A DNA stretch of 64,000 nt from Pseudomonadota bacterium (GTDB lineage Bacteria > Pseudomonadota > Gammaproteobacteria > Burkholderiales > Gallionellaceae). Shown here in pieces: positions 3,028-25,384 of this stretch. The notes beneath the pieces were generated by a model. The model was not told where the DNA came from, did no database searches, and saw only the letters and a program-made list of their open reading frames with translations. How positions within the stretch are numbered: the first letter of the stretch is position 1; each line of letters begins with the position of its first letter. The stretch covers positions 1 through 64,000 of the forward strand of contig JAPLQK010000024.1 in NCBI GenBank assembly GCA_026399735.1, written 5' to 3'. The position numbers and the translations under genes were made by a program.

Positions 3028-3126
3028 TGCTGATTTATTCGTCATCTCCGCGAAAGCGGAGATCCAGCGTCTTGATTTAACTGGATTCCCGCCTGCGCGG
3101 GAATGACAAAACCGAATAAATCAGCA
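3028..3126. repeat. MITE/NIME-like palindromic repeat
   Basis: Perfect 14-bp terminal inverted repeats tgctgatttattcg / cgaataaatcagca enclosing gtcatctccgcgaaagcggagatccag...ctggattcccgcctgcgcgggaatgac. Confidence 0.75.
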
Positions 3127-3161
3127 CATCCCTAGAATCACATTAACAATGGAACACGCTG

Positions 3162-3410
3162 ATGAAGCTTAATCTCGCTATTGCGCAACACGTGGAAAAA
3201 CTCCCCCTTCCCCGCCAGAGCGAAGTATTAGATTACGTACTTTATCTGGAACAAAAAACAGCAAACCTATCCATCAGCGATAGTGAACGCAGTAAACAAC
3301 TGACTGCCGCGCTGAAAAAAGTGGTGGATATGAACCCCTATGCCAAAATCGACCCGATAGCATGGCTGCAAGAACAAAGAATTGAACGTTCCCTGCCGGG
3401 ACGAGATTAG
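3162..3410 (+). CDS. DUF2281-like antitoxin
   Basis: 82 aa, MKLNLAIAQHVEKLPLPRQSEVLDYVLYLEQK; directly followed by PIN toxin. Confidence 0.7.
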   Translation: MKLNLAIAQHVEKLPLPRQSEVLDYVLYLEQKTANLSISDSERSKQLTAALKKVVDMNPYAKIDPIAWLQEQRIERSLPGRD

Positions 3411-3414
3411 CCAC

Positions 3415-3783
3415 ATGCTGGCTGACAGCAACATCCTGATTTACGCCACGAAGCCGGAACACGCGGAACTTCGCCAATGGCTGATTGAGACCCTGCCCAA
3501 AGTATCTGTCATCAGCAAAGTGGAAATTCTCGGCTACCACAAGCTACATGCCGCCGAAAAAATTGCGCTGACAGAATTACTGAACAGCTTGGAACTGATT
3601 TACCTGACAGCTTCAAGCTACGAAATCGCCATCCAATTACGCCAGCAACGCAAACTCACACTCGGCGATGCCCTTATCGCAGCCACCTGTCTTGAACGGG
3701 GATACACACTGGCAACCCGTAACACACTGGATTTCACTTGGATTGAGGAATTGAAAGTAATCAATCCGTTGGAAGCACATTGA
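3415..3783 (+). CDS. PIN-domain ribonuclease toxin (VapC-like)
   Basis: MLADSNILIYATK... LGDALIAATCLERGYTLATRNTLDF, acidic PIN residues D4, E, D. Confidence 0.85.
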   Translation: MLADSNILIYATKPEHAELRQWLIETLPKVSVISKVEILGYHKLHAAEKIALTELLNSLELIYLTASSYEIAIQLRQQRKLTLGDALIAATCLERGYTLATRNTLDFTWIEELKVINPLEAH

Positions 3784-7369: not shown

Positions 7370-8986
7370 ATGTTACGTTTAACCGAAATCAAACTACCCA
7401 TCGGCCATCAGGATGGCGAAATCAGGACAGCGATCCTGAAACGACTGGGCATAGCCGACAATGAGCTTGTCAGCCATGTCATTTTCAAGCGCGGCGTAGA
7501 TGCGCGAAAAGCGCACGCCATTCTGTTCACCTACACCTTGCTGGTGGAAGTGCGGAATGAAGCCGAGGTTCTGGCGAAATTTGCGAACGATCCGCATGTC
7601 AGAATCGCACCCGACACCCGTTATCATTTCGTCGCGCAAGCGCCGCAGAGTATGACTTCCCGACCGGTCGTCGTCGGCATGGGACCTGCCGGGCTGTTTG
7701 CCGGACTGCTGTTGGCGCAGATGGGATTTCGTCCGCTGATACTGGAACGCGGCAAGGCAGTGCGTGAAAGAACCAAGGATACCTTCGGATTATGGCGCCA
7801 GGGCGTGCTGAATCCGGAATCCAACGTGCAATTCGGCGAAGGCGGTGCCGGAACTTTTTCGGACGGCAAGCTGTATAGCCAGATCAAGGATCCGCGCCAT
7901 CTGAGTCGCAAAGTGCTGGACGAATTCGTCAAGGCAGGCGCGCCGGAAGAAATATTGTATGAAAGCCACCCGCATATCGGCACCTTCCGTCTGGTGGGCA
8001 TGGTCGAAAAAATGCGCGAAACCATCCAGCAGCTGGGCGGCGAAATCCGTTTTGGCAGCCGCGTGGATGACATCGAGATTGAAAATGGCGCGGTAACGGC
8101 TGTCAAGTTGGCCAGCGGCGAACGCATCGCGACCTGCCATCTGGTGCTGGCGGTCGGCCACAGCGCACGCGACACCTTCGAGATGATCCACAAACGCGGC
8201 ATCTATATCGAAGCCAAACCCTTTTCCATCGGCTTTCGCATCGAACATCCCCAGTCACTGATAGACCGCGCCCGTTTCGGCAAGAACGCAGGCAATGAGT
8301 TGCTAGGCGCTGCGGATTACAAGCTGGTGCATCACGCCAGCAACGGACGTTCCGTGTACAGTTTCTGCATGTGCCCCGGCGGCACGGTGGTCGCGGCAAC
8401 TTCCGAAGTCGGGCGCGTCGTCACCAACGGCATGAGCCAGTATTCGCGCAATGAGCGCAACGCCAACGCCGGCATCGTTGTGGGCATTACACCCGAACAG
8501 GATTACCCCGGCGACCCGCTGGCGGGAATGGCGTTCCAGCGCCGCTGGGAATCACAAGCCTTCAAGCTGGGCGGCGAAACCTATCAGGCGCCAGGGCAAC
8601 TGGTCGGCGATTTTCTGGCAGGCCGTGCATCGACCAAATTCGGCGAGGTTCAGCCGTCCTACACCCCCGGCGTACACCTGACCGACCTGTCCACCGCACT
8701 GCCCGATTACGCCATTGAGGCAATCAAAGAGGCGATTCCGGCTTTTGCCAAACAAATCAAAGGGTTCGATCTTGCCGATGCGGTGCTGACCGGCGTGGAA
8801 ACGCGCACTTCCTCGCCGATCCGCATCAAGCGCAATGCCGATGACTTGCAGAGCATCAACACCCGTGGCCTGTATCCGACCGGCGAGGGTGCAGGCTATG
8901 CGGGCGGGATTTTATCGGCGGCGGTGGACGGCATCGAGGTCGCCGAAGCGGTAGCGTTAAGCCTGCTGTCAGCCGCTGCGAAATAA
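7370..8986 (+). CDS. FAD-dependent oxidoreductase/dehydrogenase
   Basis: PVVVGMGPAGLFAGLLLAQMGFRPLILERG dinucleotide-binding motif, 538 aa. Confidence 0.9.
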   Translation: MLRLTEIKLPIGHQDGEIRTAILKRLGIADNELVSHVIFKRGVDARKAHAILFTYTLLVEVRNEAEVLAKFANDPHVRIAPDTRYHFVAQAPQSMTSRPVVVGMGPAGLFAGLLLAQMGFRPLILERGKAVRERTKDTFGLWRQGVLNPESNVQFGEGGAGTFSDGKLYSQIKDPRHLSRKVLDEFVKAGAPEEILYESHPHIGTFRLVGMVEKMRETIQQLGGEIRFGSRVDDIEIENGAVTAVKLASGERIATCHLVLAVGHSARDTFEMIHKRGIYIEAKPFSIGFRIEHPQSLIDRARFGKNAGNELLGAADYKLVHHASNGRSVYSFCMCPGGTVVAATSEVGRVVTNGMSQYSRNERNANAGIVVGITPEQDYPGDPLAGMAFQRRWESQAFKLGGETYQAPGQLVGDFLAGRASTKFGEVQPSYTPGVHLTDLSTALPDYAIEAIKEAIPAFAKQIKGFDLADAVLTGVETRTSSPIRIKRNADDLQSINTRGLYPTGEGAGYAGGILSAAVDGIEVAEAVALSLLSAAAK

Positions 8987-8999
8987 CGGAGCGAATACC

Positions 9000-9992
9000 G
9001 TGGGGGAGTTGAGCGTCATCGAATTGTTGTCTCCCCCGGACGATTTTCTGCCGAATGAGCCGGAAGGCGCGGCCTTTCACAAGGCGTTTCTAGCCTCCGG
9101 CATTATCAATTTCAACTGTCGCTATTTAGCGATTTTCAGGGACGAACAGCGCATTGCGGTGATTCCCTATTTTTTGAGCACCTTCAGTCTAGGCACCCTG
9201 CTGCCGGATAGTTTGCTGAAAAGCTTGCTTGCCTGGATAAAGTTTAGCTATGTTTGCGTCGGACATCCTTCGACCGACTTTGGCATGATAGACGGGGAAG
9301 TTTCTGCAGAAGTCCTGGCATTGGTCAATACGACGCTGGGAAAAAAGGCCGCGCTGATCGCCTACAAGGGTTTTTCAGAGAAACTGCCGCTGGAAGGTTT
9401 TACCCGGGCGCGCGGTCTGCCCGTGGCAGTACTGAACATCGAGCATGATTATTATTCTGAAATTGATGGGCACAGACGCCGCGACTTCAAACATAAACTG
9501 GAAAAAGCGCAATCTCTGCGCTTCGAAACCTGCGCAAGCTTGTCCGCGCAACTTGCGCTTCAGGTATTCGAGCTCTACCTGAACACTTACAACCATGCAC
9601 CGCTGAAATTCGAACGACTGACACTGGCCTATTTTCAGCAAACCGCTGCCATCAGTCGCTTCCTGCTGTTCTTCGAAGCGGACACACTGATCGGTTTTGC
9701 CCAGATCATCGGGAAAAATCAAAAGGCGCTGTTCAAGTATGTCGGCATGAATTATCTGCATAATCGCCAATACGGGCTATATTACGTGATGTGCCTGAAA
9801 GGCATCGAAGTCTGTGAGCGCAAGGGTTACCATCAACTGGAGTTGGGTGTCACTTCCTACCATTTCAAACGCCTGCTGGGCGGCCAACTGGTTGAAACCG
9901 GCCTGTATTTCCGCCACAGCCATCCTCTGATCAATTACCTGCTCGGCAAATTCAAATTTTTGATCGAGCCAACAGCAGATGAGTTGATGTAA
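9000..9992 (+). CDS. GNAT/FemAB-like N-acetyltransferase
   Basis: 330 aa, GTG start; C-terminal acyltransferase-like region (FAQIIGKNQKALFKYVGMNYLHNRQYGLYYVMCLKGIEVCERKGYHQLELG). Confidence 0.55.
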   Translation: MGELSVIELLSPPDDFLPNEPEGAAFHKAFLASGIINFNCRYLAIFRDEQRIAVIPYFLSTFSLGTLLPDSLLKSLLAWIKFSYVCVGHPSTDFGMIDGEVSAEVLALVNTTLGKKAALIAYKGFSEKLPLEGFTRARGLPVAVLNIEHDYYSEIDGHRRRDFKHKLEKAQSLRFETCASLSAQLALQVFELYLNTYNHAPLKFERLTLAYFQQTAAISRFLLFFEADTLIGFAQIIGKNQKALFKYVGMNYLHNRQYGLYYVMCLKGIEVCERKGYHQLELGVTSYHFKRLLGGQLVETGLYFRHSHPLINYLLGKFKFLIEPTADELM

Positions 9993-10106
9993 ACTCTGCG
10001 ACCTGAAAATAGCCACTGCATCGGCACACAAGACTTAACCTGACCGGAACCACACATCATGCTTTTGATGATTATCCAATAGCATCCATTGCAATCAAAG
10101 AAATAT

Positions 10107-10128
10107 GGGGGTATCGTTGGGGGTATCA
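10107..10128. repeat. Putative attL direct repeat
   Basis: gggggtatcgttgggggtatca, matches 24807-24828 with 1 mismatch. Confidence 0.8.
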
Positions 10129-10153
10129 ATCTCACGCAAGCTCTAATACCCCC

Positions 10154-11389
10154 ATGCCACTTACCGACATAGCAGTACGAAATGCAAAACCTAAAGAGAA
10201 ACTTTATAAGCTCAGTGACATGGGAGGACTTCAGCTTCATGTAAGTCCAACCGGTGCAAGGCTATGGCGTTACAAATATAGAATTGCCGGAAAGGAGAGT
10301 AGCTTTTCCATTGGCAACTACCCCGATACAACTCTTGCAAAGGCTCGTGAAATTCACGGCAAGGCTCGTGATCTGGTTCAGCAAGGAATTCACCCAATAC
10401 ACCATCGCAAACAGCAAGAGCTTGAAAGATTCCTCGCGTCAGGCAATACTTTCAAGTCTATAGCCACAGATTGGATTGCCCAAAAAAAATCCAAATGGTC
10501 AGCCTATTATCAACTACAAGTTGAAAGAGGGATGCGTGTTGACGTGTATCCAGACATCGGCTCGATTCCGATCAAACAGATCACCGCAGCTCACATTTTG
10601 AAAATTGTTCGAACCGTAGAGAAGCGCGGCGCACCTACAGTTGCCATATTGATTCAACAATGGTGTTCATCAATTTTTTCCTATGCAGTGGTAAACCTTA
10701 AAGCTGACTACAACCCCGTGGCTGCGATCAAGGGCGTAATTGATCGCCCCAACGTAGAGCACAATAAATCACTTTTGATAGAGGAAATCCCAGATTTTAT
10801 CCGCGCCCTTAGTGATTATGGTGGGTATCGCACCACCTGCATCGCCATTAAACTATTAATGCTCACTTTCGTCCGCACAGCGGAACTTAGAAAGGCCGAA
10901 TGGAAAGAATTCGATTTTGAAAAAGCGATTTGGCTCATCCCAGCGCATAAAATGAAAATGCGACGACCACACATTGTCCCTCTCTCAAAACAATCTATTA
11001 AGTTATTGCTAGAGCTCAAAGAATGGACAGGCAGTCGCAGCGTCTTGTTCCCAAACTATCGGAATCCATCAACATGCATGACAGCAACAACTATAAACCG
11101 CGCCATTGAACGCATGGGCTACTCAGGGCGTTTCTCTGCCCATGGATTTAGATCAACTGCCTCAACCATCCTGCGTGAGACCAAGAAAATCCCGGTTGTT
11201 TACATTGAGCGACAACTAGCCCATGCACACAAAAACCAAACCGAAGCTGCATATGACCACGCTCAATACTTAGATGACAGAATAGAAATGATGCAGATTT
11301 GGGCTGATTTCATCGACACTTTACCGAATAAATCACCCATGCAAGTTGAAGCAACTTCTGCTGAAGCCATAGAGGCCCAGCTCATTTGA
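10154..11389 (+). CDS. P4-type tyrosine integrase (DUF4102 N-terminus)
   Basis: MPLTDIAVRNAKPKEKLYKLSDMGGLQLHVSPTGARLWRYKYRIAGKESSFSIGNYPDTTLAKAR; catalytic R (TFVRTAELRKAEW), HxxR (HGFRSTAST), H, Y. Confidence 0.96.
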   Translation: MPLTDIAVRNAKPKEKLYKLSDMGGLQLHVSPTGARLWRYKYRIAGKESSFSIGNYPDTTLAKAREIHGKARDLVQQGIHPIHHRKQQELERFLASGNTFKSIATDWIAQKKSKWSAYYQLQVERGMRVDVYPDIGSIPIKQITAAHILKIVRTVEKRGAPTVAILIQQWCSSIFSYAVVNLKADYNPVAAIKGVIDRPNVEHNKSLLIEEIPDFIRALSDYGGYRTTCIAIKLLMLTFVRTAELRKAEWKEFDFEKAIWLIPAHKMKMRRPHIVPLSKQSIKLLLELKEWTGSRSVLFPNYRNPSTCMTATTINRAIERMGYSGRFSAHGFRSTASTILRETKKIPVVYIERQLAHAHKNQTEAAYDHAQYLDDRIEMMQIWADFIDTLPNKSPMQVEATSAEAIEAQLI

Positions 11390-11496
11390 CAAACGCAACA
11401 AACTTGATACGTAACACAATGATTATAAATAAGTTATTGACCTGAACTATCCATACATGTAAGATAATCAGGCAAGTCTAGCAACACACCACTTAT

Positions 11497-11600
11497 GTCA
11501 AGGAGGACGGTGCTACAGATGTTTAGTAGCCGAGTGGACAGAGGCTACTGACGTTAGTAGCTGAGGTTTACACCCGCAATGGGTACTGTTTCTCCTTGAC
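11497..11600 (+). ncRNA. Candidate structured RNA (unassigned)
   Basis: 9-bp closing stem gtcaaggag/ctccttgac, internal hairpins agtagcc/ggctact and accc/gggt. Confidence 0.35.
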
Positions 11601-11658
11601 GTACCATTTCCGCTATTTGGTGCTTCAGGAATTATTCAACTATTCTGAGGAGTATCAA

Positions 11659-11922
11659 ATGCTAGTTAAACCAGCTCATGCAAAGTCGACCGCTCACATC
11701 GTGCCGCGTCGCGTGGGTCATACCCGCCCCAAAGCCCCGCTAATATCACTCAACAGCCTAGGACGACTGCGCGTATCAAACGTCATGGCGTTACTTTCCA
11801 TCTCACATTCAACGCTATACGCTGGCATTAAAACAGGACGCTATCCCCAACCTGACGGGCGTGACGGAAAATTCCCATACTGGCAAACCCACACAATTCG
11901 TGATTTCTTGAATAGCGCGTAA
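11659..11922 (+). CDS. AlpA-like DNA-binding regulator
   Basis: LRVSNVMALLSISHSTLYAGIKTGRYPQPDGRDGKFPYWQTHTIRDFL is AlpA-like. Confidence 0.7.
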   Translation: MLVKPAHAKSTAHIVPRRVGHTRPKAPLISLNSLGRLRVSNVMALLSISHSTLYAGIKTGRYPQPDGRDGKFPYWQTHTIRDFLNSA

Positions 11923-12034
11923 TTTACGCCTCACCCAGAATCTTTGGTTAAATGGATAAATCCTTTTTATTCAAAAGGTAAATCATATTTTTTAAATTAC
12001 TTGTTTGATTTTCAGTAATCAAGGGGGGAGTATT

Positions 12035-12232
12035 GTGTTGCCAACCCACGTAAAAAATGAAGTTTTAATGAACCGTCAAGAGGCTGCCCAGTATCTGGGC
12101 GTGTCCCCCTCGACGCTCGCCAACTGGGTATCTACCCGAAAATTCAAAATCCCGTACTTTAAAGTCGGGAAAGCTGTGCGCTACCGTAAGTGTGATCTAG
12201 ATGCCTTTATCGAGAGAGGCAGAGTTGATTAG
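12035..12232 (+). CDS. Helix-turn-helix excisionase-like protein
   Basis: MNRQEAAQYLGVSPSTLANWVSTRKFKIPYFKVGKAVRYRKCDLDAFIERGR (HTH_17/excisionase fold). Confidence 0.85.
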   Translation: MLPTHVKNEVLMNRQEAAQYLGVSPSTLANWVSTRKFKIPYFKVGKAVRYRKCDLDAFIERGRVD

Positions 12233-12244
12233 GCGCTCGCGTAT

Positions 12245-13249
12245 ATGCGCGCACGATTGATTAAATCCAGCATTGAAGAAAAACCTATAAAGATTAAGAA
12301 GATAGCAATGAAAATAGAGATGATGATAGAAGGCTCAATGGTGATAGTCGGGTTAGATAAAACCGTGATAGGCATCGAATATCCAAAATTGCCTAAGCCT
12401 GATGAACAGAACCCAATCACGCAAGAGCTGATAGCTCAGGTGAATGCAGACAAGAACGAGTTTGTATCAAACATGAAGCATATTGAGAGCATGATTAAAA
12501 TCGGCCCCCACTACGTCAGCTACACCAAAAACAAAGATTTGAAACGTTACAAGGTGCTGTCGGAAATTGACGGGGGACTGCTCTGCATATTTTCCCTCGG
12601 CTTCAGCTTCGGGACTGCGGTAATCAACTTCGAGATCAATCCGTCCCGCCTTACCCCCGAAAAATGGGATGAGCTTCTTGGCCTACTGAGTGTTATGTTC
12701 AACGATCACTATGATGAGATTTACACTAAGGGCGTACTTGCCCACGCAGAGTTTTGCATCGACGTTTCCGGGGAGGATTTATCCGACCTTGTTCTGATTG
12801 ATAAAGGCCGCCGCGCCTACACCAGATTTAAGGGGACGACCTACCTTGGACGGAGGAAGTCCCATCTCTCTACCGTCATGTATGACAAATCCAAGGAACA
12901 AAAGCAGGAAGGGAATCTTGTCCGTATCGAGGCGCGCCTGTCCGACCGCACCATACGAGTCCCCGACCTCGTTGAGACCGATCTGTTTAATCCATTCAGT
13001 AACTGCTTAGTCGTAGATGTAAACCAGCTGCACTCAGCTTCAATTGCATTAAAAAATCCGGCTCTGCCCAACATGATTCGTGAACTAGGGTTGGCGGGTG
13101 CGGTCGCAAATAAGTACGCACGGCAATCTATACTGAGCCACCTCGAAGAGAATGCCGCCCCTTGGTGGAAGCCGACCTTGTACTGGGCTGCACATCGGGA
13201 GTTGTTGCAGCAGCTCAAACCTTCACAGATAGAGAGCTTGACGCAGTAG
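12245..13249 (+). CDS. Replication initiation factor-like protein (Rep_trans-like)
   Basis: AEFCIDVSGEDL...RFKGTTYLGRRKSHLSTVMYDKSKEQ...LVRIEARL resembles Rep_trans phage/plasmid initiators. Confidence 0.65.
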   Translation: MRARLIKSSIEEKPIKIKKIAMKIEMMIEGSMVIVGLDKTVIGIEYPKLPKPDEQNPITQELIAQVNADKNEFVSNMKHIESMIKIGPHYVSYTKNKDLKRYKVLSEIDGGLLCIFSLGFSFGTAVINFEINPSRLTPEKWDELLGLLSVMFNDHYDEIYTKGVLAHAEFCIDVSGEDLSDLVLIDKGRRAYTRFKGTTYLGRRKSHLSTVMYDKSKEQKQEGNLVRIEARLSDRTIRVPDLVETDLFNPFSNCLVVDVNQLHSASIALKNPALPNMIRELGLAGAVANKYARQSILSHLEENAAPWWKPTLYWAAHRELLQQLKPSQIESLTQ

Positions 13250-13440
13250 GCTGACTCTCCTCAAGTGAGTGTTACGATGGCCGTTACGAGGTGTAAATAT
13301 GTGTTCGTAACACCTCAACAATAACGCCTACGAGAAAACTGATATACCCGCAACCTACTGTCCTTAAAGGGTATTTGTCCATTTGTTGATTTCTCAAAAA
13401 CCATGGTCTAAGCATAATTCCCCCTGATAACGGATCACCC

Positions 13441-13511
13441 GATAACCCGTTGATTTATTTGACAAACTCGACAAACCTGCTAAGATAACGTCATGTAATC
13501 AATGGGTTATC
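13441..13511. repeat. Inverted repeat upstream of the second recombinase
   Basis: gataacccgttgatt (13441-13455) / aatcaatgggttatc (13497-13511), 14 of 15 positions complementary. Confidence 0.7.
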
Positions 13512-13515
13512 TAGC

Positions 13516-14661
13516 TTGCCTGAGCTACCAAACTTTGAGGGAATTTCATCAAAAATAGCGAGGGCAAAATCACAGCACGTATCACCGGCATCACTTCCAG
13601 CAGCAAGCTCCCCACATATCATTTTTAGCGCAAAGGCGATCATGGCTCATCAGTCGCCATCCGCCATAGCCGCACGATTTTCTGGTTCAATTCTAACCTC
13701 TGATAATTCCCAATTATCGGAAGCTAGAAAGGCCGATGGCACACCCGATTTTGTGCAAATTACCGCACCAGAAATTCACCACGCCAAACTGACTCAGTAC
13801 CTTCAGGCATCGCTGTCAGACAACAGTAAGCGCGCTTACTTAAATGATGTTCGGCATTTCCTAGCTTGGGGAGGCAACATCCCATCTACGCCGGATCAAG
13901 TTGCAGGATACCTCGTCGCTCAGGCGGAGACACATTCCAACGCAACGCTGACGCGCCGATTGGTCAGCCTCTCTCGTGCACACACTTCACAAGGCCACGC
14001 CTCCCCGACAAAAACCGACTTGGTGAAAGCCACTCTGCACGGAATCAGGCGTGTACATGGCACCGCCCAGCATCAAGTCAGCCCGATCCTGAAAGCGGAC
14101 ATCATGGGGATGGTCGATAACCTCACCGGCATGATTGGTGTGCGGGACAAGGCATTACTACTGATCGGATTCGCTGGAGCTTTCCGGCGTTCTGAGCTGG
14201 TTGCCCTCACTGGTGCTGACCTCAGTTTTGTCGAGCAAGGGTTAGTCATCCATATCCGCCGTTCCAAGACCGATCAGACGGGCGAAGGCAGAAAGGTAGC
14301 CATTCCCTACGCCAGAGGTAGGCATTGCCCTGTCCTCGCACTCAAGCACTGGCTGTCCACTGCCGGAATCAGCGATGGCCTGATATTCCGCCCGATCACC
14401 CGTCATGGGCATGTTCAGCAGTCAGCCCTTTCAACAGAGGCCGTGGCCTTGATCGTCAAGAAACGGGCGCAAGCGATTGGCCTAGACCCTAGCCAGTTCT
14501 CTGGTCACTCGCTTCGCGCTGGGCTGGCGACAAGTGCCGCTCAAGCTGGCGTGTCGGCACACAAAATTCAGCAACAAACAGGACACAAGTCAATTGAGAT
14601 GCTGTCTCGCTACATCCGTGACGCGAACATCTTTGTTGATAACGCCGGTTCAATTTTATGA
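13516..14661 (+). CDS. XerC/D-like tyrosine recombinase
   Basis: RRSELVALTGADL, HSLRAGLATSAAQAGVSAHKIQQQTGHKSIEMLSRYIRDANIF; R..HxxR..H..Y. Start uncertain (TTG 13516 or internal ATG). Confidence 0.9.
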   Translation: MPELPNFEGISSKIARAKSQHVSPASLPAASSPHIIFSAKAIMAHQSPSAIAARFSGSILTSDNSQLSEARKADGTPDFVQITAPEIHHAKLTQYLQASLSDNSKRAYLNDVRHFLAWGGNIPSTPDQVAGYLVAQAETHSNATLTRRLVSLSRAHTSQGHASPTKTDLVKATLHGIRRVHGTAQHQVSPILKADIMGMVDNLTGMIGVRDKALLLIGFAGAFRRSELVALTGADLSFVEQGLVIHIRRSKTDQTGEGRKVAIPYARGRHCPVLALKHWLSTAGISDGLIFRPITRHGHVQQSALSTEAVALIVKKRAQAIGLDPSQFSGHSLRAGLATSAAQAGVSAHKIQQQTGHKSIEMLSRYIRDANIFVDNAGSIL

Positions 14662-14671
14662 AAGGAATCAA

Positions 14672-15751
14672 ATGAAAATCATGTTGGAATCGTTCACCCA
14701 CTCGGAAACGCACTACGAAGTCGATAAGGATGCGAAGCACTGCTCATGTCCGGCATTCACCCTGAATGGTCACTGCAAGCATCTAGCGGGAGTCGGAATA
14801 TACAAGCAGCGTCATGCCACCCTGACCACCCGACCGAATTACTCTCAAGCCTTGTCAGCACTGGTGAAGAGTATCCGCCTACGGGACATCAATGAAGGCG
14901 CGTACTGGCTGAACTATTGCTGGAGTTTTAATGACCGTTTGGCGGGGTCTCAATTCAGAACGGTGCGCCGTCTACTGATTGGCTCCTCAGAAGATGGGCA
15001 CAGCATTGCTGTCATGGAGAAGATGGCAGCGAACTTCCCTGCCTTGTTATCAAAACAGGTCGCACTTGAACGAGTTCTGGCAGAACTGATACGTATCTGC
15101 AAAGTGCCAAACTGGTGGAATCCCGATTCAGGCGGGCATAACTACATTCACTGCGGGATGCTGGCAATGCGCAAAGGATTCTACAGCCCCGCACAGTGCA
15201 GCCTTGCTGACTGTCTGAGCGGTTTGGTGCTGTCCATCGACCAGCAAAACAAGGTTGGCGCGCTGTACTGGACGATGGCGGCACACGGCGCGGGAAAAGG
15301 GGCTGGCCTTCAACTGGCACAAAAGCTCTACACCCTCGCCACCGAGCAGGACTGCACCCCAGCCCTGCGGCTGATGAAAAACGTCTATCTGCCTCACGCC
15401 AAGTCTTTGAGTGCTGATTCCAACTTTACGTGCCAAGCAGCATGGTTTCTGGCGGGAGGTGTCTCGCCCGTCATCGACCAGATCGAAACCGTCACCCTCG
15501 GAGAAATCCGCCAGCTTTTGGACAAGGTGCGAGACACATCACCCTATGTGGTGCCTGAGTGGTGCTGCGATGGAATTCACTGTGCTGGCAACGATCTGCG
15601 CTATGCGGGGATGTGGGATCGCATGTTTGCCGTCTGCAACCAATTCAGCCACTACGGGAGAGTGAGTCCCGTTGATGAATGGCTGGAGCCGAAGTTCTAT
15701 TCAGTAGCCGGTCTGAAGCTGGAAGGAGGAATGATGTCTGAAGATAAGTAA
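14672..15751 (+). CDS. SWIM zinc-finger protein
   Basis: N-terminal SWIM motif CSCPAFTLNGHCKHLAGV; starts 11 nt after the recombinase gene. Confidence 0.8.
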   Translation: MKIMLESFTHSETHYEVDKDAKHCSCPAFTLNGHCKHLAGVGIYKQRHATLTTRPNYSQALSALVKSIRLRDINEGAYWLNYCWSFNDRLAGSQFRTVRRLLIGSSEDGHSIAVMEKMAANFPALLSKQVALERVLAELIRICKVPNWWNPDSGGHNYIHCGMLAMRKGFYSPAQCSLADCLSGLVLSIDQQNKVGALYWTMAAHGAGKGAGLQLAQKLYTLATEQDCTPALRLMKNVYLPHAKSLSADSNFTCQAAWFLAGGVSPVIDQIETVTLGEIRQLLDKVRDTSPYVVPEWCCDGIHCAGNDLRYAGMWDRMFAVCNQFSHYGRVSPVDEWLEPKFYSVAGLKLEGGMMSEDK

Positions 15752-15859
15752 TTGCAATCAGTTGGACAAAACCGAGGTGAATAGCTCACCGGAATCGGCG
15801 GGGAGGGATGCGTCAACATCCCCACCGCCTGACCACACCAAACTAAGAAGGAGTTTGAA

Positions 15860-16294
15860 ATGGCTACTGAGAATGTTAGCAGGACGATCTACAACCGTAT
15901 ATACCACAAGCTGTTTGATGTAATCCCCGATCTGCTCACGATAGAAGAAGCAGGCAAATCGGAGGTAGATGGATTTATGAAACTTAATCTCGATGTCCTG
16001 CACAAGCGGTCGAGTCGTATTGTGATCGCGCTGTCGCATTACTATCGTCACCCGTCTGGCGACATGATCCCCGATCCTGACATGGAGCTTGTCGTCTATC
16101 CCGGCAAAGAAATGGCTGAAGCCCTCGCCTATCAGGATTGTTACTGCTACCGCCGTGTGTATGGTGATGATGGCGCAACGGAGGACATCAAGGCCAAGAA
16201 GGAGTTAAACGCTTTCCTCGATCAATGGCTGTCCAACCTGATTGAGCAAGGCCACCACATCAAGGTTGTACCGGAGGCTGACGATGGAGAGTGA
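15860..16294 (+). CDS. Hypothetical protein
   Basis: 144 aa ORF with preceding purine-rich RBS (aagaaggag). Confidence 0.6.
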   Translation: MATENVSRTIYNRIYHKLFDVIPDLLTIEEAGKSEVDGFMKLNLDVLHKRSSRIVIALSHYYRHPSGDMIPDPDMELVVYPGKEMAEALAYQDCYCYRRVYGDDGATEDIKAKKELNAFLDQWLSNLIEQGHHIKVVPEADDGE

Positions 16295-16298
16295 TACG

Positions 16299-16613
16299 TT
16301 AGCCGGGCCGAATGACAGTGACAGCTCGGCGCAATTCAGCTTCGTCCATGATGCTGATCGACTGCACCAACCTGTCGCGCAGCATGTCGGCGGTTTCGTC
16401 TTCGGGGAAGATGAAGAACTCTTTCAGCGGGACGTGCAAGTGCTGTGCAATCAGTTCGAGGGTATCAATGCTAGGGTAATGGATGCCACGCTCAAGGCGG
16501 GACAGGTGGTGAGGGTCGATTGTCACGAGACCGGCAAGCCCTTCCTGCGTCAGGCCAGCTTTCTTGCGAAGTTCCTTGATCCGCCGCCCGATTTGTACCT
16601 TCGTATTCGCCAT
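16299..16613 (-). CDS. XRE-family HTH transcriptional regulator
   Basis: IGRRIKELRKKAGLTQEGLAGLVTIDPHHLSRLERGIHYPSIDTLELIAQHLHVPLKEFF. Confidence 0.93.
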   Translation of the reverse strand: MANTKVQIGRRIKELRKKAGLTQEGLAGLVTIDPHHLSRLERGIHYPSIDTLELIAQHLHVPLKEFFIFPEDETADMLRDRLVQSISIMDEAELRRAVTVIRPG

Positions 16614-16826
16614 TCCCCAAACCCCTGTTGTATCGGGGTAATCTCCCATAGAGGGCAACGATATAACAGGGCGCAAAAAATCCATTTATTTAAGCCTTGT
16701 AGGCTTTTAAAGTTCACTTATGCAGTTTCTACCGATACAATCGCCGCCGGACATTCACTTTTTAAGTTTTTTGTGTTGCGATACATCCAAAAAGCTCCTT
16801 CCATGAAGATAGTACGAGGTCAATAA

Positions 16827-17906
16827 ATGATTCATAAAAAAGCCAACGATGTTGAAAGATTGAGCAAGTTGTTTTGGGGTGGAGTAATTCTTCTAGTTCT
16901 AGTCATCGCTGCGGTACGCTATACCGATTATGCTGAAAGCGACCGTATAGAGCAGGGTAAAATTGATTTTGCCACGAGCATTAAGCCGGACGTTCTGAAA
17001 AAAGCAAAAGAGGCGTTCTCTCAAGGAAAATATGCAGAGGTTCGTCAACTCCTTGGAGGATATACTCAATTTGGCGACGCCGACTTTCTTCAGCTTTCCA
17101 AAAATGCGGATAAAGCCGAAGTGTTTGCATATCAGCTAGAGCAAAGCGATTTCTACAAGAAAAACCCTCCAGTTAAGGTTGATCAGTGGAGCTTAAAAAC
17201 TGGTGGGATAAACTATTCCTATTCGTTTACAGATACGGCGTCCAGCTATGAACAGGTGGGCGTTGAATTCAATCATGACAAAACTGGCAAAGCACATGTG
17301 TCTGTCATGTGGCACGGTTCTAATATAAGCTCACCGGCAACACTGACAATCGAACGTGAGCAATTTATCATCGGATTGGTAAATGCCATATTTCCACAAA
17401 TCGAGATTCCAAAGCTGATTGCATACATCCGAGCCAACCAGAACAAGAGCAGCGCAAAAGGATGGGATGCCCTACCAAGGGCTGAGATCAATGGCGTCAG
17501 AGTTTATGTCGGCGTGGATAGTCCGAATCTCATGGTTGGATTTGGGGGTGGAACAAGCGAGGAACTATTAAAGGTTATTGAACCCGCTCCCCAGCAAAGT
17601 ACAGAGCAGAGTGGAAATTCGAGTACATTCCACAGCAATGACATTCCCGGCGGCCCCTCAGTCAATTCAAAAACAGGGGATTTAAGTGAAGAGCAGTTAG
17701 ACGGCTGCTTTTTATCAGGCGAGTCTGCAGCCACGGCCTACATTTCCGACATGGCGAAATATGCCAATAGCGGACTCATGCCATCCACAGTTATGGAAAA
17801 GGGGTGTGAGCGTAAAGGGAATGAGACCGCTGATCCTAAGGCTTGCATTCAAACCTGTGAGATGGGGTTCAGAAAAGTTGCCAAAGATGTATTGAACGGG
17901 CGTTGA
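16827..17906 (+). CDS. Membrane-anchored protein of unknown function
   Basis: 359 aa, N-terminal TM helix LFWGGVILLVLVIAAV, soluble C-terminal region. Confidence 0.6.
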   Translation: MIHKKANDVERLSKLFWGGVILLVLVIAAVRYTDYAESDRIEQGKIDFATSIKPDVLKKAKEAFSQGKYAEVRQLLGGYTQFGDADFLQLSKNADKAEVFAYQLEQSDFYKKNPPVKVDQWSLKTGGINYSYSFTDTASSYEQVGVEFNHDKTGKAHVSVMWHGSNISSPATLTIEREQFIIGLVNAIFPQIEIPKLIAYIRANQNKSSAKGWDALPRAEINGVRVYVGVDSPNLMVGFGGGTSEELLKVIEPAPQQSTEQSGNSSTFHSNDIPGGPSVNSKTGDLSEEQLDGCFLSGESAATAYISDMAKYANSGLMPSTVMEKGCERKGNETADPKACIQTCEMGFRKVAKDVLNGR

Positions 17907-17933
17907 TGCCACAACCATAAATAGGACAATTAA

Positions 17934-18341
17934 ATGAAAAATCTACTCAGCGTTTTAATGCTTAGCTTCGCAATTGCTGGATGTGCAACCAGCCCAATTA
18001 CTACGACCAGCGCGCAACCAGTTCCAGCCAGTCAGATTCTAAGTGCTGAATTGGTCACGCAGACAAGCGGCTCTGCCGAGGTCGTCGTTAAGCGTGACAG
18101 CGGGATGCGCGGCATGGGATGTATGGTGCGTATCTATGCCGATGCCAAACCTGTTGCTGACTTATGGCGGAGCGAGAAGGTCGTTATGTATCTGCCAGAA
18201 GGCGACCACATCATCAGTGCATCAACCTGCGGCGGGGGTGTTGTAGAAATCCAAACCATCGTGAAAGCAGGCAAAGCGAACACCTATCGCGTTGGGTTCG
18301 GGGTCGTTTCTGAACTTGGAATATTCCCAACGGCTTTTTAG
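17934..18341 (+). CDS. Small lipoprotein
   Basis: Lipobox LSFAIAGCATSP, 135 aa. Confidence 0.7.
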   Translation: MKNLLSVLMLSFAIAGCATSPITTTSAQPVPASQILSAELVTQTSGSAEVVVKRDSGMRGMGCMVRIYADAKPVADLWRSEKVVMYLPEGDHIISASTCGGGVVEIQTIVKAGKANTYRVGFGVVSELGIFPTAF

Positions 18342-18690
18342 TTGCCGGGGAGTTGCGGCAACGTGCCGTTTATTCTCCCCGTCACCTCCGAGCAAGCCAG
18401 CCTTCGCAATGAAGGCCAACCTTCTTGAACACTTGCTCGGATCACCCAAAGTTCTGCATGTCTAGTCAAAACAGCATAGGCCATTCGGTCTATCTGGCAC
18501 GATAAATAGTTACAGATTTGATCCGTCCCTTGTTTTGCCGGGGCAGAAATCACACTGATGATTGAACACGAAGTATCATGCCAACATATTGGACGTAATC
18601 CCGCATCTATGGCGGCTTGGCATCATGCCTTGCCCCTGTCGGGGTTGCCCGCGAAGTGCTTAATGAAATCACAAAGAAGAATAGAAAACG

Positions 18691-20199
18691 ATGCCATTTT
18701 TAGATTGGGTCAATAAGAATCAGGCCAAAGAAACTACCCGCGACGTGCCTTACCATCTGCTGAAACAGGAATCCGTTTATGGCGCGGGCGATGAAAACAT
18801 GCTGATACAGGGTGATAACCTGCTGGCACTCAAGGCATTGATTCCATTTTATGCCGGGCAGGTGAAGTGTATTTTCATTGATCCACCGTACAACACGCAG
18901 AGCGCATTCGATCATTACGACGATAAATTGGAGCATAGCCAGTGGCTTTCTATGATGTATCCGCGCTTGGTGCTGCTGCGCGAAATGCTGGCTGAGGACG
19001 GTTGCATCTGGGTCACGATTGATGATAATGAGGCTCACTATCTGAAGGTGCTGATGGATGAGGTGTTTGGTCGCAGGAATTTTGTGTCAAATGTCCTATG
19101 GCAGAAAAGAACCTCTCCTGATGCCCGTATTCAACTTGGAGCCGCTCATGACCATGTTATGGTCTTCGCTAAGGAAATTGAGAGAGTTAAGTTTAACAAA
19201 CTCTCTCTTTCCCCGGAGCAGGCTCAGAATTTCAAAAACCCTGACAATGATCGGCGAGGCCCTTGGGCATCCACAGATTTCACCGCTCAAGGCTGGCGAC
19301 CCAACCAGATGTACAAGTTACAATCGCCGAGCGGCGTTGAGTTTGAACCGCCTCCTGGGCGTTGCTGGTCAAACATTGAGAGTGAGTATCGTCGGCTTCT
19401 AGCTGAAGGGCGCATGTACTTTGGTAAGAACGATACTGCGCGTCCACGGGTGAAGAACTATCTTTCTGAAAGCGATGGAATTAGCTCGTGGTCATGGTGG
19501 GGTAACTCAGAGGTCGGGCATAACCAAGAAGCGAAAAAAGAAATTAACGTGCTGTTTGGGGCTGATGATGCCTTTGGCACGCCAAAGCCAGAACGACTTT
19601 TACAGCGAATTATCAGCCTTTCAACCAAGCCCGGCGATCTTGTGCTTGATAGCTTTCTGGGTAGCGCAACCACCTCTGTCGTAGCCCATAAAATGGGTCG
19701 CCGCTATATCGGTATCGAAATGGGTGAACATGCCCGCACTCACTGCATCCCGCGTTTGCAGAAGGTTATCGACGGTGAGCAAGGTGGTATCAGTGAGGCG
19801 GTCGATTGGAAAGGCGGTGGCGGATTCCGTTTCTGCACGCTGGGCGAACCAGCGTTTGATTCGCATGGACGCATCAACACGGCTGTGCATTTCGAGACTT
19901 TGGCGGCTTACGTGTGGCACTATGAAACGAGCGTACCCGGACAGCAAACATTCGACAAGCCACTGCTGGGAATTGAAGACGGCACAGCCTATTATTTACT
20001 GTACAACGGCATACTGGGTGATCGTCGTCCAGTAAGCGGCAATGTATTGACTCATGCCGTACTGGAGACTATCAAGGAGCTATTTCCACACGACGGGCCA
20101 AAGGTGATTTACGGCGAAACAACCCGACTGGGTGCTGCCCGCCTCGCTGCTGAGAACATCACGTTCAAGCAGATTCCCTATGACGTGAAGATGCGCTGA
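18691..20199 (+). CDS. Type III-like site-specific DNA-methyltransferase (Mod)
   Basis: Beta-class order: FIDPPYNT (motif IV) before DSFLGSATTSVVAHKMGRRYIGIEM (motif I). Confidence 0.93.
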   Translation: MPFLDWVNKNQAKETTRDVPYHLLKQESVYGAGDENMLIQGDNLLALKALIPFYAGQVKCIFIDPPYNTQSAFDHYDDKLEHSQWLSMMYPRLVLLREMLAEDGCIWVTIDDNEAHYLKVLMDEVFGRRNFVSNVLWQKRTSPDARIQLGAAHDHVMVFAKEIERVKFNKLSLSPEQAQNFKNPDNDRRGPWASTDFTAQGWRPNQMYKLQSPSGVEFEPPPGRCWSNIESEYRRLLAEGRMYFGKNDTARPRVKNYLSESDGISSWSWWGNSEVGHNQEAKKEINVLFGADDAFGTPKPERLLQRIISLSTKPGDLVLDSFLGSATTSVVAHKMGRRYIGIEMGEHARTHCIPRLQKVIDGEQGGISEAVDWKGGGGFRFCTLGEPAFDSHGRINTAVHFETLAAYVWHYETSVPGQQTFDKPLLGIEDGTAYYLLYNGILGDRRPVSGNVLTHAVLETIKELFPHDGPKVIYGETTRLGAARLAAENITFKQIPYDVKMR

Positions 20200-20203
20200 C
20201 ACT

Positions 20204-22885
20204 ATGTTTGAACTCAAAACCTACCAAAAAAATACACTGACCGCGTTAAATCAGTTCCTGCAATCCTGCCGTAGTGTGCCGATTTCGGATGCGTTCCATG
20301 CGATGCTGGCAACTCAAAATCGTAGCGGCGAACGGTATCAGCCCGTGTTCGATGATGTGCCTTGCGTATGTTTGCGCATCCCAACGGGCGGCGGAAAAAC
20401 CGTGCTTGCCGCTCATGCTGTGGCACTGGCTGGCAAGGCCGTCCTTGATAGCGACTCACCTATTGCCCTGTGGCTTACGCCTTCAGACACCATTCGATCA
20501 CAGACGCTGGACGCGCTGTCCAATGCCCGGCATCCGTATCGTCAGGCATTGGCGCATTACTTCGGCGACCGTGTGCAAGTGTGTGATCTGGAAAGCCTGC
20601 AAACGATCAGCCCACATGATGTCGGCAAGGCCTGTATTGTTGTGGTTGCCACGATTCAATCCTTCAATGTCACGGATACTGCCAAGCGCAATGTTTATTC
20701 GTTCTTCGAGGAACTTGCGCCACACTTCGATAATCTGCCTGCCAATCTAACCGCCAACTTGGAGAAGGTGACGGAGGCTGATTTACAAAATCAGCGGTAT
20801 CTGACTGCTGCTGACATCGGGCGGGTGAAGTATTCCCTTGCGAACTGGTTGCACCTGCGTCAGCCCGTCGTCATCGTGGATGAGGCGCATAACAATCGCA
20901 CTGACCGATTCTTTAAGACGCTGGGCCGACTGAATCCCAGTTGTGTGGTGGAGCTTACCGCAACGCCTGTTGCCGGAAATAATGTGCTGTATCACGTATC
21001 CGCGCAAGAACTGAAAGCCGAACAGATGATTAAGCTGCCGATTGTATTGGCAGAGCATCCCGAAGGTTGGCGCGAGTGTTTGCGAGATGCGGTACTTACC
21101 CGTGACGGACTGGAATTGACGGCGCAGAAAGAAACAGACTACATACGCCCTATCGTACTGGTGCAGGCCGCGCCCAAGGGCAACGAGGCCACTGTTGACG
21201 TGGTACGTCAGCACTTGATCGAACAGGAAAACATCCCGGAAAACCAAATCGCAGTAGCGACAGGTTCACAGAAAGAGTTGGAAGGGATCAACCTGTTTGA
21301 GCGTAGTTGCCAGATTCGTTATGTCATCACCGTGGAGGCATTGAAAGAAGGTTGGGACTGCTCGTTTGCCTATGTGCTGGCATCATTGCAATCTGTGAGG
21401 TCTGCCAAGGATGTTGAGCAGTTGCTGGGGCGTGTGCTGCGTATGCCTTACGCAAAACAACGTCAACAGGATGCGCTGAATAAAGCCTACGCCCACATCG
21501 TTGCCGAAAACTTTGCCGAAGCCGCTGCCACCCTTAAAGACCGCATGGTACAAAACATGGGCTTCGAGCGACTGGAAACGGGCGCGCTGATTATCCCTCA
21601 GCAACCTTTGCCGCTGACGGGCGGGCAAGGTGGTAGCACTCCAATTGCACCTGTTATTCCCGACTGCCATATCGAAGTGCCGCAAATGCCGGACACACAG
21701 CACTGGCCTGAAGAGATCAAGGCGGCGGTACAAATTCGCGTCACGACACAAGGTGCGACGATCCTGCTGAAAGGTAATGTCGATTCGGACACATTGGCGC
21801 AAGCAGAGGCGTTTATCAGCAAGACGTTGCCAGAGAAAGCGCGTATCGCCGTCAAAGAGCAATTCGATGCGCACCGCGCTGTCCGTCAGGCACTACGCGC
21901 CCCGGCACAGTTGGGATTGAACTTCGCACTGATTCCGCAGCTTTGTTTGCAGTTGGATGGTTATCTTGAAATCGTGGAGAAGGAAACGCTGTCCAGCATT
22001 GGTGATTGGGATTTGCTCGATCAGCCCGTGCAACTTGCCGGATTTACCATCCGCGAGAGTATCAATTCGTTTGAGATTGATGTGAATGGTCAACAGGTCA
22101 AATATCGCCACATTGACGCGCAACAACTTAAACTGAACGATGTTGTCAGTCATGTTTCTGAACAAGACCTCGTGCGTTGGCTGGATTTGGAGGTGCGCAA
22201 GCCCTATGTCTCGCAGCTACAGTTGCAAGCATATTTGCTGAAGATGCTGTCGCACCTGATCCATGATCGTGGACTGACTTTAACCACATTGGTTCGGGCG
22301 CGATTCCAGCTTGCTCAAGCCGTTAGCCGCGAGATTGAGCGGTTGCGACAACTCGCAATGGAGAAGGGATTCCAAGGGCGACTGTTTGAAATGTCCGTGC
22401 CACCTGCTGATAGTTCCGTGTATTACAGCTTTGAGTTTCAGGCGGGTATGTATCCTGCTCGGCAGTGCTATCAAGGCAGCTACGAATTCAGCAAGCATTT
22501 CTACCCAGTGATTCACGACCTGCGCGAGAAAACGGGCGCGGGCAAGACTGCGGAAGAGTTCCAATGCGCGCAGGCCATTGATGCTCACCCGATGGTCAAG
22601 CAGTGGGTGCGTAACATCGAGAGGCAGGAAAAGTTTTCCTTCTGGCTGCCGACTTCCAGCGACTATTTCTATCCCGATTTTGTGGCGGAACTCACCGATG
22701 GTCGTGTGTTAGCTGTCGAGTACAAAGGCGAACCCTACAAAACCAATGATGACTCACGCGAGAAAAAGCAGGTCGGTGATCGTTGGGAGAAATCCAGCGA
22801 TGGCCGTTGCTTATTCATGTTTGCCGTGGCAGAAGATGAGTCTGGGCGAACGGTATTCCAGCAACTTGCGGAAAAGCTGATTTGA
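20204..22885 (+). CDS. Type III-like restriction endonuclease subunit (Res), SF2 helicase plus C-terminal nuclease
   Basis: Walker A RIPTGGGKTVLAAH, DEAH VIVDEAHN, ELTATPV, LLGRVLRMPYA; C-terminal YPDFVAELTDGRVLAVEYKGE resembles a PD-ExK site. Confidence 0.93.
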   Translation: MFELKTYQKNTLTALNQFLQSCRSVPISDAFHAMLATQNRSGERYQPVFDDVPCVCLRIPTGGGKTVLAAHAVALAGKAVLDSDSPIALWLTPSDTIRSQTLDALSNARHPYRQALAHYFGDRVQVCDLESLQTISPHDVGKACIVVVATIQSFNVTDTAKRNVYSFFEELAPHFDNLPANLTANLEKVTEADLQNQRYLTAADIGRVKYSLANWLHLRQPVVIVDEAHNNRTDRFFKTLGRLNPSCVVELTATPVAGNNVLYHVSAQELKAEQMIKLPIVLAEHPEGWRECLRDAVLTRDGLELTAQKETDYIRPIVLVQAAPKGNEATVDVVRQHLIEQENIPENQIAVATGSQKELEGINLFERSCQIRYVITVEALKEGWDCSFAYVLASLQSVRSAKDVEQLLGRVLRMPYAKQRQQDALNKAYAHIVAENFAEAAATLKDRMVQNMGFERLETGALIIPQQPLPLTGGQGGSTPIAPVIPDCHIEVPQMPDTQHWPEEIKAAVQIRVTTQGATILLKGNVDSDTLAQAEAFISKTLPEKARIAVKEQFDAHRAVRQALRAPAQLGLNFALIPQLCLQLDGYLEIVEKETLSSIGDWDLLDQPVQLAGFTIRESINSFEIDVNGQQVKYRHIDAQQLKLNDVVSHVSEQDLVRWLDLEVRKPYVSQLQLQAYLLKMLSHLIHDRGLTLTTLVRARFQLAQAVSREIERLRQLAMEKGFQGRLFEMSVPPADSSVYYSFEFQAGMYPARQCYQGSYEFSKHFYPVIHDLREKTGAGKTAEEFQCAQAIDAHPMVKQWVRNIERQEKFSFWLPTSSDYFYPDFVAELTDGRVLAVEYKGEPYKTNDDSREKKQVGDRWEKSSDGRCLFMFAVAEDESGRTVFQQLAEKLI

Positions 22886-22926
22886 TCAATGCGTTATAGG
22901 TTATGAAATAGCAGGGAGCTACATCT

Positions 22927-23658
22927 ATGGCGATTCAGATTATGGAAATTCTTGGGCGTTCTATTCAAGGTGTAACCCGCCCATTTCAATGCCGATGTGA
23001 AAACGGTGAACTTTATTATGTTAAAGGTCGCGGAGCTGGCAGAAAGAGCTTGATCGCTGAATATGTATGCGGCAGATTGGCACGTAGTTTTGGATTGCCT
23101 GTTGCGGAATTTGAGGTTGTGGAGGTTCCACAAGAACTGATTGCATGGGGAAATGTTTCTGATTTACATGAGCTGGGGGCTGGACTGGCCTTCGGATCAA
23201 AGGCATTGCCTCATGTCCTAGAGTTTTCTCTTTCCAATTTGCCGGATGTGCCTCAGGAGCTGCGGAAAGATGTAGTGCTATTTGACTGGTGGATACATAA
23301 TGCAGACCGGACACTGTCCAAGCTGGGCGGCAATCCCAATCTTCTTTGGGATCAAGAAGCTCGTGGTTTGGCGGTGATCGACCATAATCAGGCATTTGAT
23401 GATTCGTTCAATCCCACCAACTTTGCAGAACTGCATGTATTTCATGCAGATTTGCCAGTAATTTTTGATGACTGGGTGGAACGGCAGGCTTATGCTGATC
23501 GTCTGGCTGCTACGATTGCTGAATTCGACTTAGCTTGCGATAATGTTCCACCTGAATGGTGGTGGGTGGATAATGGTGTCCCCGCTAGTTTTGACAGGGA
23601 TTCTGCACGGGAAATTCTGGGGCGGTTTAATGATGATAACTTTTGGAGGGTAGCGTGA
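22927..23658 (+). CDS. HipA-like kinase (HipA_2 type)
   Basis: YYVKGRGAGRKSLIAEYVCGRLARSFGLPV; DWWIHNADRTLSKLGGNPNLLWD; LAVIDHNQAFDDSF. Confidence 0.85.
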   Translation: MAIQIMEILGRSIQGVTRPFQCRCENGELYYVKGRGAGRKSLIAEYVCGRLARSFGLPVAEFEVVEVPQELIAWGNVSDLHELGAGLAFGSKALPHVLEFSLSNLPDVPQELRKDVVLFDWWIHNADRTLSKLGGNPNLLWDQEARGLAVIDHNQAFDDSFNPTNFAELHVFHADLPVIFDDWVERQAYADRLAATIAEFDLACDNVPPEWWWVDNGVPASFDRDSAREILGRFNDDNFWRVA

Positions 23659-24485
23659 TGAAAAAATATGCATGTCAGTACGCTATCGTCCGTTTCCTGC
23701 CGTATCTGGAAACAGGCGAATTTGCCAACGTGGGCATTGTTATGGCTTGTCCCGCTACAGGCTATTTCGACTTCAAGTTGATGACACGAATTCGACGAAT
23801 CTCAGCCTTTTTTGAGGAGCTTGATACTGGGATTTACCGTAGTGCCAAAAGTGACTTTCAGCAAGAGTTGAAGCGTGTTCATAATTGGCTTGACCCTCAA
23901 AAGGGTGGCATCCATACGCCAGAATTTTTACGTCTCTTTTTTGCCGAACTGACTCGTCCACGCGAGGCAATGATGCGTTTCGAGGGTGCTCGGGTATTGA
24001 TGACCGATGATCCGGCACAACAACTTGATGAGTTGTTTGGATACTACGTGGAGCGGAATTTTTCTACCAAGGCATATCAAGAGCAATTACTCGACAAGAC
24101 GGTTCGTAAGGTTTTGCTTAATGCGCAACTGAATAAGCAGTTCCAAGCTAACACCATCGGAAACACCGATTCTTATCATGCCAAATTTCCATTTGTGCAG
24201 TTTGATAATGGACGAGCCCTTAAAGCGATTAAGCCGCTGCATCTCGCACAGACCGATCCTGCTGCAATTTTCGATCACGGCTGGGCGTGGTTAGGTAAGG
24301 TACAAAAACTCAGAGCATTGCGCGTCTTACCTGAAGGCGTACTGTTTCCAGTGCAAGGACCAACAGAGGCTGAAGGTGAGCGATTCGAGATGTTTCAAGA
24401 CATCACTGCACAACTCGCAGCAAACGACGTGCAGGTTGTAGCAACTACTGAAATAGAAAAGATAGTTGCCTTCGCACGAAACTAG
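23658..24485 (+). CDS. DUF3037 domain protein
   Basis: MKKYACQYAIVRFLPYLETGEFANVGIVMACPATGYFDFKL; start overlaps HipA stop (TGATG). Confidence 0.85.
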   Translation: MKKYACQYAIVRFLPYLETGEFANVGIVMACPATGYFDFKLMTRIRRISAFFEELDTGIYRSAKSDFQQELKRVHNWLDPQKGGIHTPEFLRLFFAELTRPREAMMRFEGARVLMTDDPAQQLDELFGYYVERNFSTKAYQEQLLDKTVRKVLLNAQLNKQFQANTIGNTDSYHAKFPFVQFDNGRALKAIKPLHLAQTDPAAIFDHGWAWLGKVQKLRALRVLPEGVLFPVQGPTEAEGERFEMFQDITAQLAANDVQVVATTEIEKIVAFARN

Positions 24486-24806
24486 CACAAGCTAGGGATA
24501 ACGATCTATTTGCAAAAAACTCCACGCATTACCAAGTGCAGAAAAGCCTACGAGAGGCTTCTCAATGGTGTTACCAGCCCCAACCATTAAATCGCGCAGA
24601 CAACTGCACTATCAGGCGTCTAACAAGCCACAAAAGTGAATTATGTAGAACAAGACTGCACGAAACTGTGTTGGCTAATCTGCTGGTTATCTTCCAAGGC
24701 ATCCTGCACAGTGCGATAATAGCAAGGTTGGCATGTTCATCTAATGCATAGGGTTCGTTACGCCCCCTATTTGCCCAATTACACCTAAAGCACAGGAAAT
24801 GAAATT

Positions 24807-24828
24807 GGGGGTATCCTTGGGGGTATCA
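24807..24828. repeat. Putative attR direct repeat
   Basis: gggggtatccttgggggtatca. Confidence 0.8.
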
Positions 24829-24879
24829 TCAGTAGATTGAAGGCGGCCACTCTTTTATAATCAAATGGATACAGTCACT

Positions 24880-25384
24880 ATGCTGCTGATGATCGACAAC
24901 TACGACTCTTTCACCTACAACCTGGTACAGTATTTCAGTGAACTGGGCGCGGACGTCGAAGTGCATCGCAACGACGAAATCACCGTCGGACAAATTGAGA
25001 AAATGAACCCGCAGCATATCGTGGTATCGCCCGGCTGTCTTAGGCGTGTGCCTGGGACATCAGAGTATCGGACAGGCTTTCGGCGGCAAGATTGTCCACG
25101 CCAAACAACTGATGCACGGCAAGACTTCCTTGATCCATCACCACAGCAACAGCGTATTCACCGGCCTGCCCAATCCGTTCACCGCGACGCGCTATCACTC
25201 GCTGGTCATCGAACGCGAAAGCCTGCCGGACTGCCTGGAGATCACCGCATGGACTGATGACGGCGAAATCATGGGCGTGCGCCATAAGCGGCTTTCGGTA
25301 CACGGCGTGCAGTTTCATCCCGAATCCATCCTCACCGAACACGGCCACGACATGCTGAAAAATTTTCTGGAAGGCAAACCATGA
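24880..25384 (+). pseudogene. trpG: Anthranilate synthase component II, internal deletion and frameshift
   Basis: [52 protein letters not shown] in frame 1, [21 protein letters not shown]...[23 protein letters not shown] in another frame; residues normally between SPG and VLGVCLGH are missing. Confidence 0.85.

Follow-up and report, generated by a model that had tools for sequence, protein, structure and literature searches.

HipA-like kinases that are encoded together with a DUF3037 protein and without HipB constitute the HipAD system (PDC-M66 in PADLOC; DS-6), an anti-phage system published in 2025-2026. In Retron-Sda1, deletion of the HipA kinase abolished defence against Bas51 and deletion of the DUF3037 gene was toxic; the retron itself was dispensable for the defence provided by HipA and DUF3037 (PMC12548924). 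In DS-6, renamed HipAD, defence was lost when a catalytic residue was mutated, and the kinase and the DUF3037 protein were predicted by AlphaFold3 to form a complex, with an ipTM of 0.76-0.79 (PMC13092281). Another homologue, found by tblastn, is present in Escherichia phage PhiR5_1 (PV340545), whose record names the products HipA toxin and HipD antitoxin; a survey of 5,426 E. coli genomes found this pair in 284.

The two genes considered here lie in the window, i.e. the whole 64,000-nt stretch of DNA that was analysed (Table 1), and are a new copy of this already described system. The kinase is 34% identical to that of PhiR5_1 over 212 aa, and the DUF3037 protein, HipD, is 28% identical to its PhiR5_1 counterpart over 274 aa, with 98% coverage (tblastn). 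This identification removes a false novelty; the HipA-like toxin-antitoxin reading of the original prediction is nevertheless supported, though for a known system, by the papers on homologues, by conserved catalytic residues and by decayed loci that lose the kinase and keep HipD. Taking sequence and analogy together, the pair can be regarded, with a probability of about 0.86, as a HipAD-type two-gene toxin-antitoxin anti-phage module.

Table 1. Features of the hipAD locus and its surroundings in the window
Feature	Position	Strand	Remarks
hipA-like kinase gene (PF20613 HipA_2, 243 aa; proposed toxin)	22927..23658	+	ATG 22927, TGA 23656-23658
hipD gene (DUF3037 protein, 275 aa; proposed antitoxin)	23658..24485	+	ATG 23658, stop at 24485
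TGATG stop/start overlap	23656..23660	+	A at 23658 common to both genes; relatives similar
GGAGG Shine-Dalgarno-like stretch for hipD	23645..23649	+	within kinase 3' end; similar stretches in relatives
DUF3037 domain, residues 8-131	23679..24050	+	sole domain of the partner in a divergent subfamily
HipD C-terminal domain, residues 138-275	24069..24482	+	predicted PD-(D/E)XK nuclease-like fold without acidic catalytic residues
Integrative island carrying hipAD, at trpG 5' end	10059..24880	.	integrases, type III R-M, hipAD
Tyrosine integrase at island start	10154-11389
Second integrase of island	13516-14661
trpE	319-1806		trpE and trpG flank the variable region
Type III R-M methyltransferase (mod)	18691..20199	+	upstream; context, outside the pair
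Type III R-M restriction subunit (res)	20204..22885	+	41 nt before kinase; context, outside the pair

The kinase gene is preceded by the type III res gene, and hipD is followed by trpG at about 24865; no HTH or HipB gene adjoins the pair. The original prediction had described both this absence of a HipB-like HTH ORF beside the kinase and the A shared by stop and start in TGATG, and it was right on both counts. Two other starts are available for hipD, an in-frame GTG at 23655, which would give the usual 4-nt overlap (GTGA), and a TTG at 23643; when relatives are aligned, the ATG at 23658 is the preferred start. A promoter and terminator scan of 18300-24900 remained below shuffle expectation and was uninformative, so that the co-transcription of mod, res and hipAD is one that we infer from spacing only.

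At the family level, the kinase is assigned to HipA_2 (E=1e-88, residues 5-242) and matches PDC-M66A with a modest score, over residues 14-158 only (E=8.5e-12). Residues K33, N125, D127, R128, N138 and D152 are invariant in an alignment of 57 sequences; presumably they correspond to the ATP-binding lysine, the catalytic loop and the metal-binding residues of the HipA-like fold. The motifs DWWIHNADRT and VIDHNQAF, previously pointed out as signs of an active enzyme, are present and contain four of these residues (N125, D127, R128 and D152), and the catalytic residues of the window kinase are, as judged from the alignment, intact. The predicted model (pLDDT 95.6) gives weak fold matches to PI4KII, actin-fragmin kinase, CtkA, CotH, HipT-Lp and HipA, with a best E of 9.7e-5 and TMq values of about 0.41-0.55. 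Searches of PDB sequences with the single protein and with a profile returned a weak match to actin-fragmin kinase only, and no HipA; in NCBIfam neither the kinase nor HipD was matched.

HipD matches DUF3037 (PF11236, E=4e-25) in its N-terminal part and PDC-M66B over residues 1-270 (E=7.5e-24). Nine positions, P15, T19, E21, F22, N24, G26, R47, F51 and W211, are invariant among 59 sequences. The predicted model (pLDDT 95.0, pTM 0.69) appears to consist of two domains, the second of which is built as helix-strand-strand-strand-helix-strand, a succession characteristic of PD-(D/E)XK nucleases. Most of the PDB fold matches belong to this superfamily (Can2, BstEII, XPF, Card1, the XisH-like 2okf and EcoO109I), although individually they are weak (best E 2.3e-3, TMq 0.34), and restriction-endonuclease and PD-(D/E)XK entries are also found among the weak matches to viral models; at the sequence level, neither single-protein nor profile searches of the PDB yielded a homologue that could be used. 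The acidic residues of PD-(D/E)XK enzymes, which would fall at positions 179 and 190 (strands 174-183 and 186-191), are absent in all 59 HipD relatives, and K192 is kept in 55 of the 59; because neither position carries an acid, the C-terminal domain is unlikely to be an active nuclease. A role in DNA binding would fit the report that the Sda1 DUF3037 protein resembles, at its C-terminus, a retron DNA-binding protein (PMC12548924). One could go further and suppose that this dead nuclease is a sensor bound to DNA or to a partner restriction-modification (R-M) complex; dislodged by phage DNA or by an R-M inhibitor, it would set the kinase free, so that R-M-linked copies would form a built-in second line that fires once restriction is defeated; we consider this proposal unlikely. 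A divergent subfamily (e.g. L043) has a HipD of only about 130 aa, which indicates that DUF3037 alone is probably sufficient for pairing with the kinase.

The association of the two genes is conserved far beyond chance. DUF3037 genes were found in 23 of 399 genomes of the phylum, the window's own included; in 22 of them a HipA_2 match directly precedes the DUF3037 gene on its strand, and in the last (G040) the upstream kinase was recovered with an iterated profile, so that all 23 are paired. In a set of 161 phage-contig loci (one of them bacterial and one from a MAG), in which several contigs contribute two loci, so that not all are independent, both genes are present in 158, and a 4-nt stop/start overlap is found in 155 of the 157 with assessable spacing. 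The single window kinase, used as query against genome contigs, retrieved only two loci. In L048, L050, L052 and L056, where a weak HipA_2 relative has no Pfam DUF3037 partner, the kinase is followed by a protein of about 280-305 aa with no significant Pfam match and, by eye, a DUF3037-like N-terminus; these proteins are possibly diverged HipD families. In L054 and L058 the protein that follows a weak HipA_2-like kinase was judged by eye to be HipS-plus-HTH-like and HIRAN-like, respectively.

Loci in decay reveal a polarity. The kinase is interrupted and HipD intact in G006 and G296, the kinase is split beside an intact HipD in L173, and in L177 only a C-terminal scrap of the kinase remains with an intact HipD; among close relatives no intact kinase without HipD was found. 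These counts are small and come from loci found partly through the pair itself; the direction of decay fits a toxin with its antitoxin. The original prediction had placed DUF3037 where either an antitoxin or a substrate adaptor would stand. Of these, the antitoxin role agrees with the toxicity of the DUF3037 deletion in Sda1 (PMC12548924), and the adaptor role is unsupported. A strict 1:1 pairing with overlapping genes could be accounted for just as well by an obligate heteromeric enzyme, in which DUF3037 is a substrate adaptor or an activating co-subunit and the kinase, e.g. an island signalling kinase, acts only in the complex, and the complex predicted by AlphaFold3 for DS-6 (PMC13092281) is compatible with such an arrangement; however, loss of the Sda1 DUF3037 protein is toxic rather than inactivating, and kinases are broken beside intact HipD, with the reverse absent among close relatives, which makes this alternative very improbable.

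As a toxin-antitoxin module, the pair could operate as follows. The kinase gene would be translated first and HipD from the overlapping start; since this start has its own Shine-Dalgarno sequence, HipD would be made together with the kinase. In uninfected cells HipD would bind and silence the kinase; upon infection some trigger would relieve this inhibition, and the freed kinase would phosphorylate an essential target of the host (or of the phage), stopping growth before phage release. Binding, trigger and target are what we infer for the window copy. Membership of the family, intact catalytic residues, the conserved overlap and the decay polarity are observations on this pair and its relatives; the need for the kinase and for its catalytic residue, as well as the toxicity of DUF3037 loss, were established by the published work on homologues, and by analogy may hold here.

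The position of the pair 41 nt downstream of res, on the same strand, raises the possibility of a functional link with R-M. PrrC, which is held by EcoprrI, is a precedent for a toxin guarding an R-M system, and the hipAD pair might likewise be an accessory of the R-M operon, firing on R-M loss or phage block and having no stand-alone role. Among the 28 canonical loci with flanks (the window, L003-L006, L096-L105, L281-L292 and L296), R-M genes adjoin the pair in eight, a lower bound obtained with nine R-M queries and selected PADLOC scans, without a formal random control; the systems are of type III (window), type IIG (L099) and type I (L096, L102, L281, L283, L284 and L291), and in L283, L284 and L291 no more than 8 nt separate the pair from the R-M gene before it. 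In a tree of the kinases, L283 (type I; 63% identity) groups as sister to the window copy, and at least five changes of the R-M state are needed on well-supported branches; thus the linkage was gained or lost repeatedly. Against an obligate guard, R-M neighbours were not seen at the other 20 of the 28 loci, and in PhiR5_1 the pair stands by itself. Moreover, DS-6 is a two-protein system (PMC13092281) and the Sda1 pair defended without the retron (PMC12548924). Clustering in shared defence islands is the simple explanation for the linkage; a guard relation is possible in principle, but dependence of the pair on R-M seems quite unlikely. In seven divergent loci (L293-L295 and L297-L300) no R-M neighbour was found (0/7). 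In L103 (8506-12771) the pair adjoins a helicase gene of the GajB/RTasHel type together with a 615-aa gene on the opposite strand, a further defence-like neighbourhood.

The R-M operon and the pair lie on the same mobile element. In sister genomes (L066, L069 and others), homologues of window 7370-8986 or 9000-9989 run directly into trpG; thus, by this comparison, the region from about 10,059 to 24,880 of the window is an insertion of about 14.8 kb. Its ends carry an imperfect 14-bp match (ATGCTTTTGATGAT versus ATGCTGCTGATGAT) and TGGGGGTATC repeats. Within the cargo, hipAD lies at the greatest distance from the integrase. The stretch that separates the first integrase from the R-M genes (12245-18341) holds ORFs of 334 (faint Rep_trans), 405, 194, 359 and 135 aa, for which Pfam gives a weak match or nothing informative. 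The trpG gene of the window (24865-25384) lacks about 65 bp that are kept in the compared sister genomes, and the gap at 25035/25043 causes a frameshift; either trpG is a genuine pseudogene here, or the assembly of this 82%-complete genome is wrong at this point. No plasmid record carries the window island. The island is absent from sister species, with a scar in one: in L095/L106, segments within 3094-3465 match window 18558-18664, 23394-23616 and 24436-24482 with 89-93% identity, showing that the island was deleted stepwise, both hipA and hipD included. In this sister genome (G400, uncultured Nitrosomonadales, L106), kinase residues of about 157-232 are left, fused to the last hipD codons, the catalytic half of the kinase and nearly all of hipD having been deleted together. 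Such a jointly inactivated scar, all that remains of the pair in a genome from which most of the island has disappeared, and the distal position of the pair on an integrase island would suit a module whose chief effect is to keep the island in place through addiction, phage defence being a by-product. One role does not preclude the other, but homologues have been shown to defend (PMC12548924, PMC13092281), and addiction as the main role is therefore rather unlikely.

To the published description this copy adds the location of the pair as the final cargo genes of an integrase island of about 14.8 kb at the trpG 5' end, its position behind a type III R-M operon together with the repeated linkage to different R-M types, and a C-terminal half of HipD with a predicted PD-(D/E)XK fold devoid of acidic residues. 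The predicted inactive-nuclease fold, the natural DUF3037-only subfamily and the R-M linkage make phage sensing by the antitoxin experimentally accessible.

Among the known systems, HipBA of E. coli K-12 has in common with the window pair a HipA-like kinase fold as toxin (weak match to 4pu5, TMq 0.43), but the window kinase has only 243 aa; membership in HipBA was rejected, since no HipB HTH gene adjoins the pair. HipBST also has a short kinase (HipT-Lp, 8ezr, TMq 0.49) with a non-HTH antitoxin; however, the window has two genes with the kinase first, and membership was rejected in view of the lack of HipB and of a hipB-hipS-hipT order. HipD shows no likeness to HipS by sequence or among the PDB fold matches listed. 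PDC-M66 and Retron-Sda1 share the two-gene architecture, and the window genes match the PDC-M66A and PDC-M66B models, whereas no retron RT or ncRNA was noted in the window island. The DS-6B protein has been reported to combine DUF3037 with DUF1829, the latter not being a trait that defines the pair; the window HipD has no Pfam match to DUF1829, which is also absent among the families matched at E<=0.1 by 17 HipD proteins, PhiR5_1 HipD included. In PhiR5_1 the pair is flanked by cI and kil in a lambda-like prophage, whereas the window pair resides in an integrase island behind type III R-M. As in the window, HipAD/DS-6 of E. coli (PMC13092281; PhiR5_1) has a HipA_2-like kinase followed, with a stop/start overlap, by a DUF3037 protein of about 275 aa; the pairs are only 28-34% identical, yet homologous over nearly their full length.
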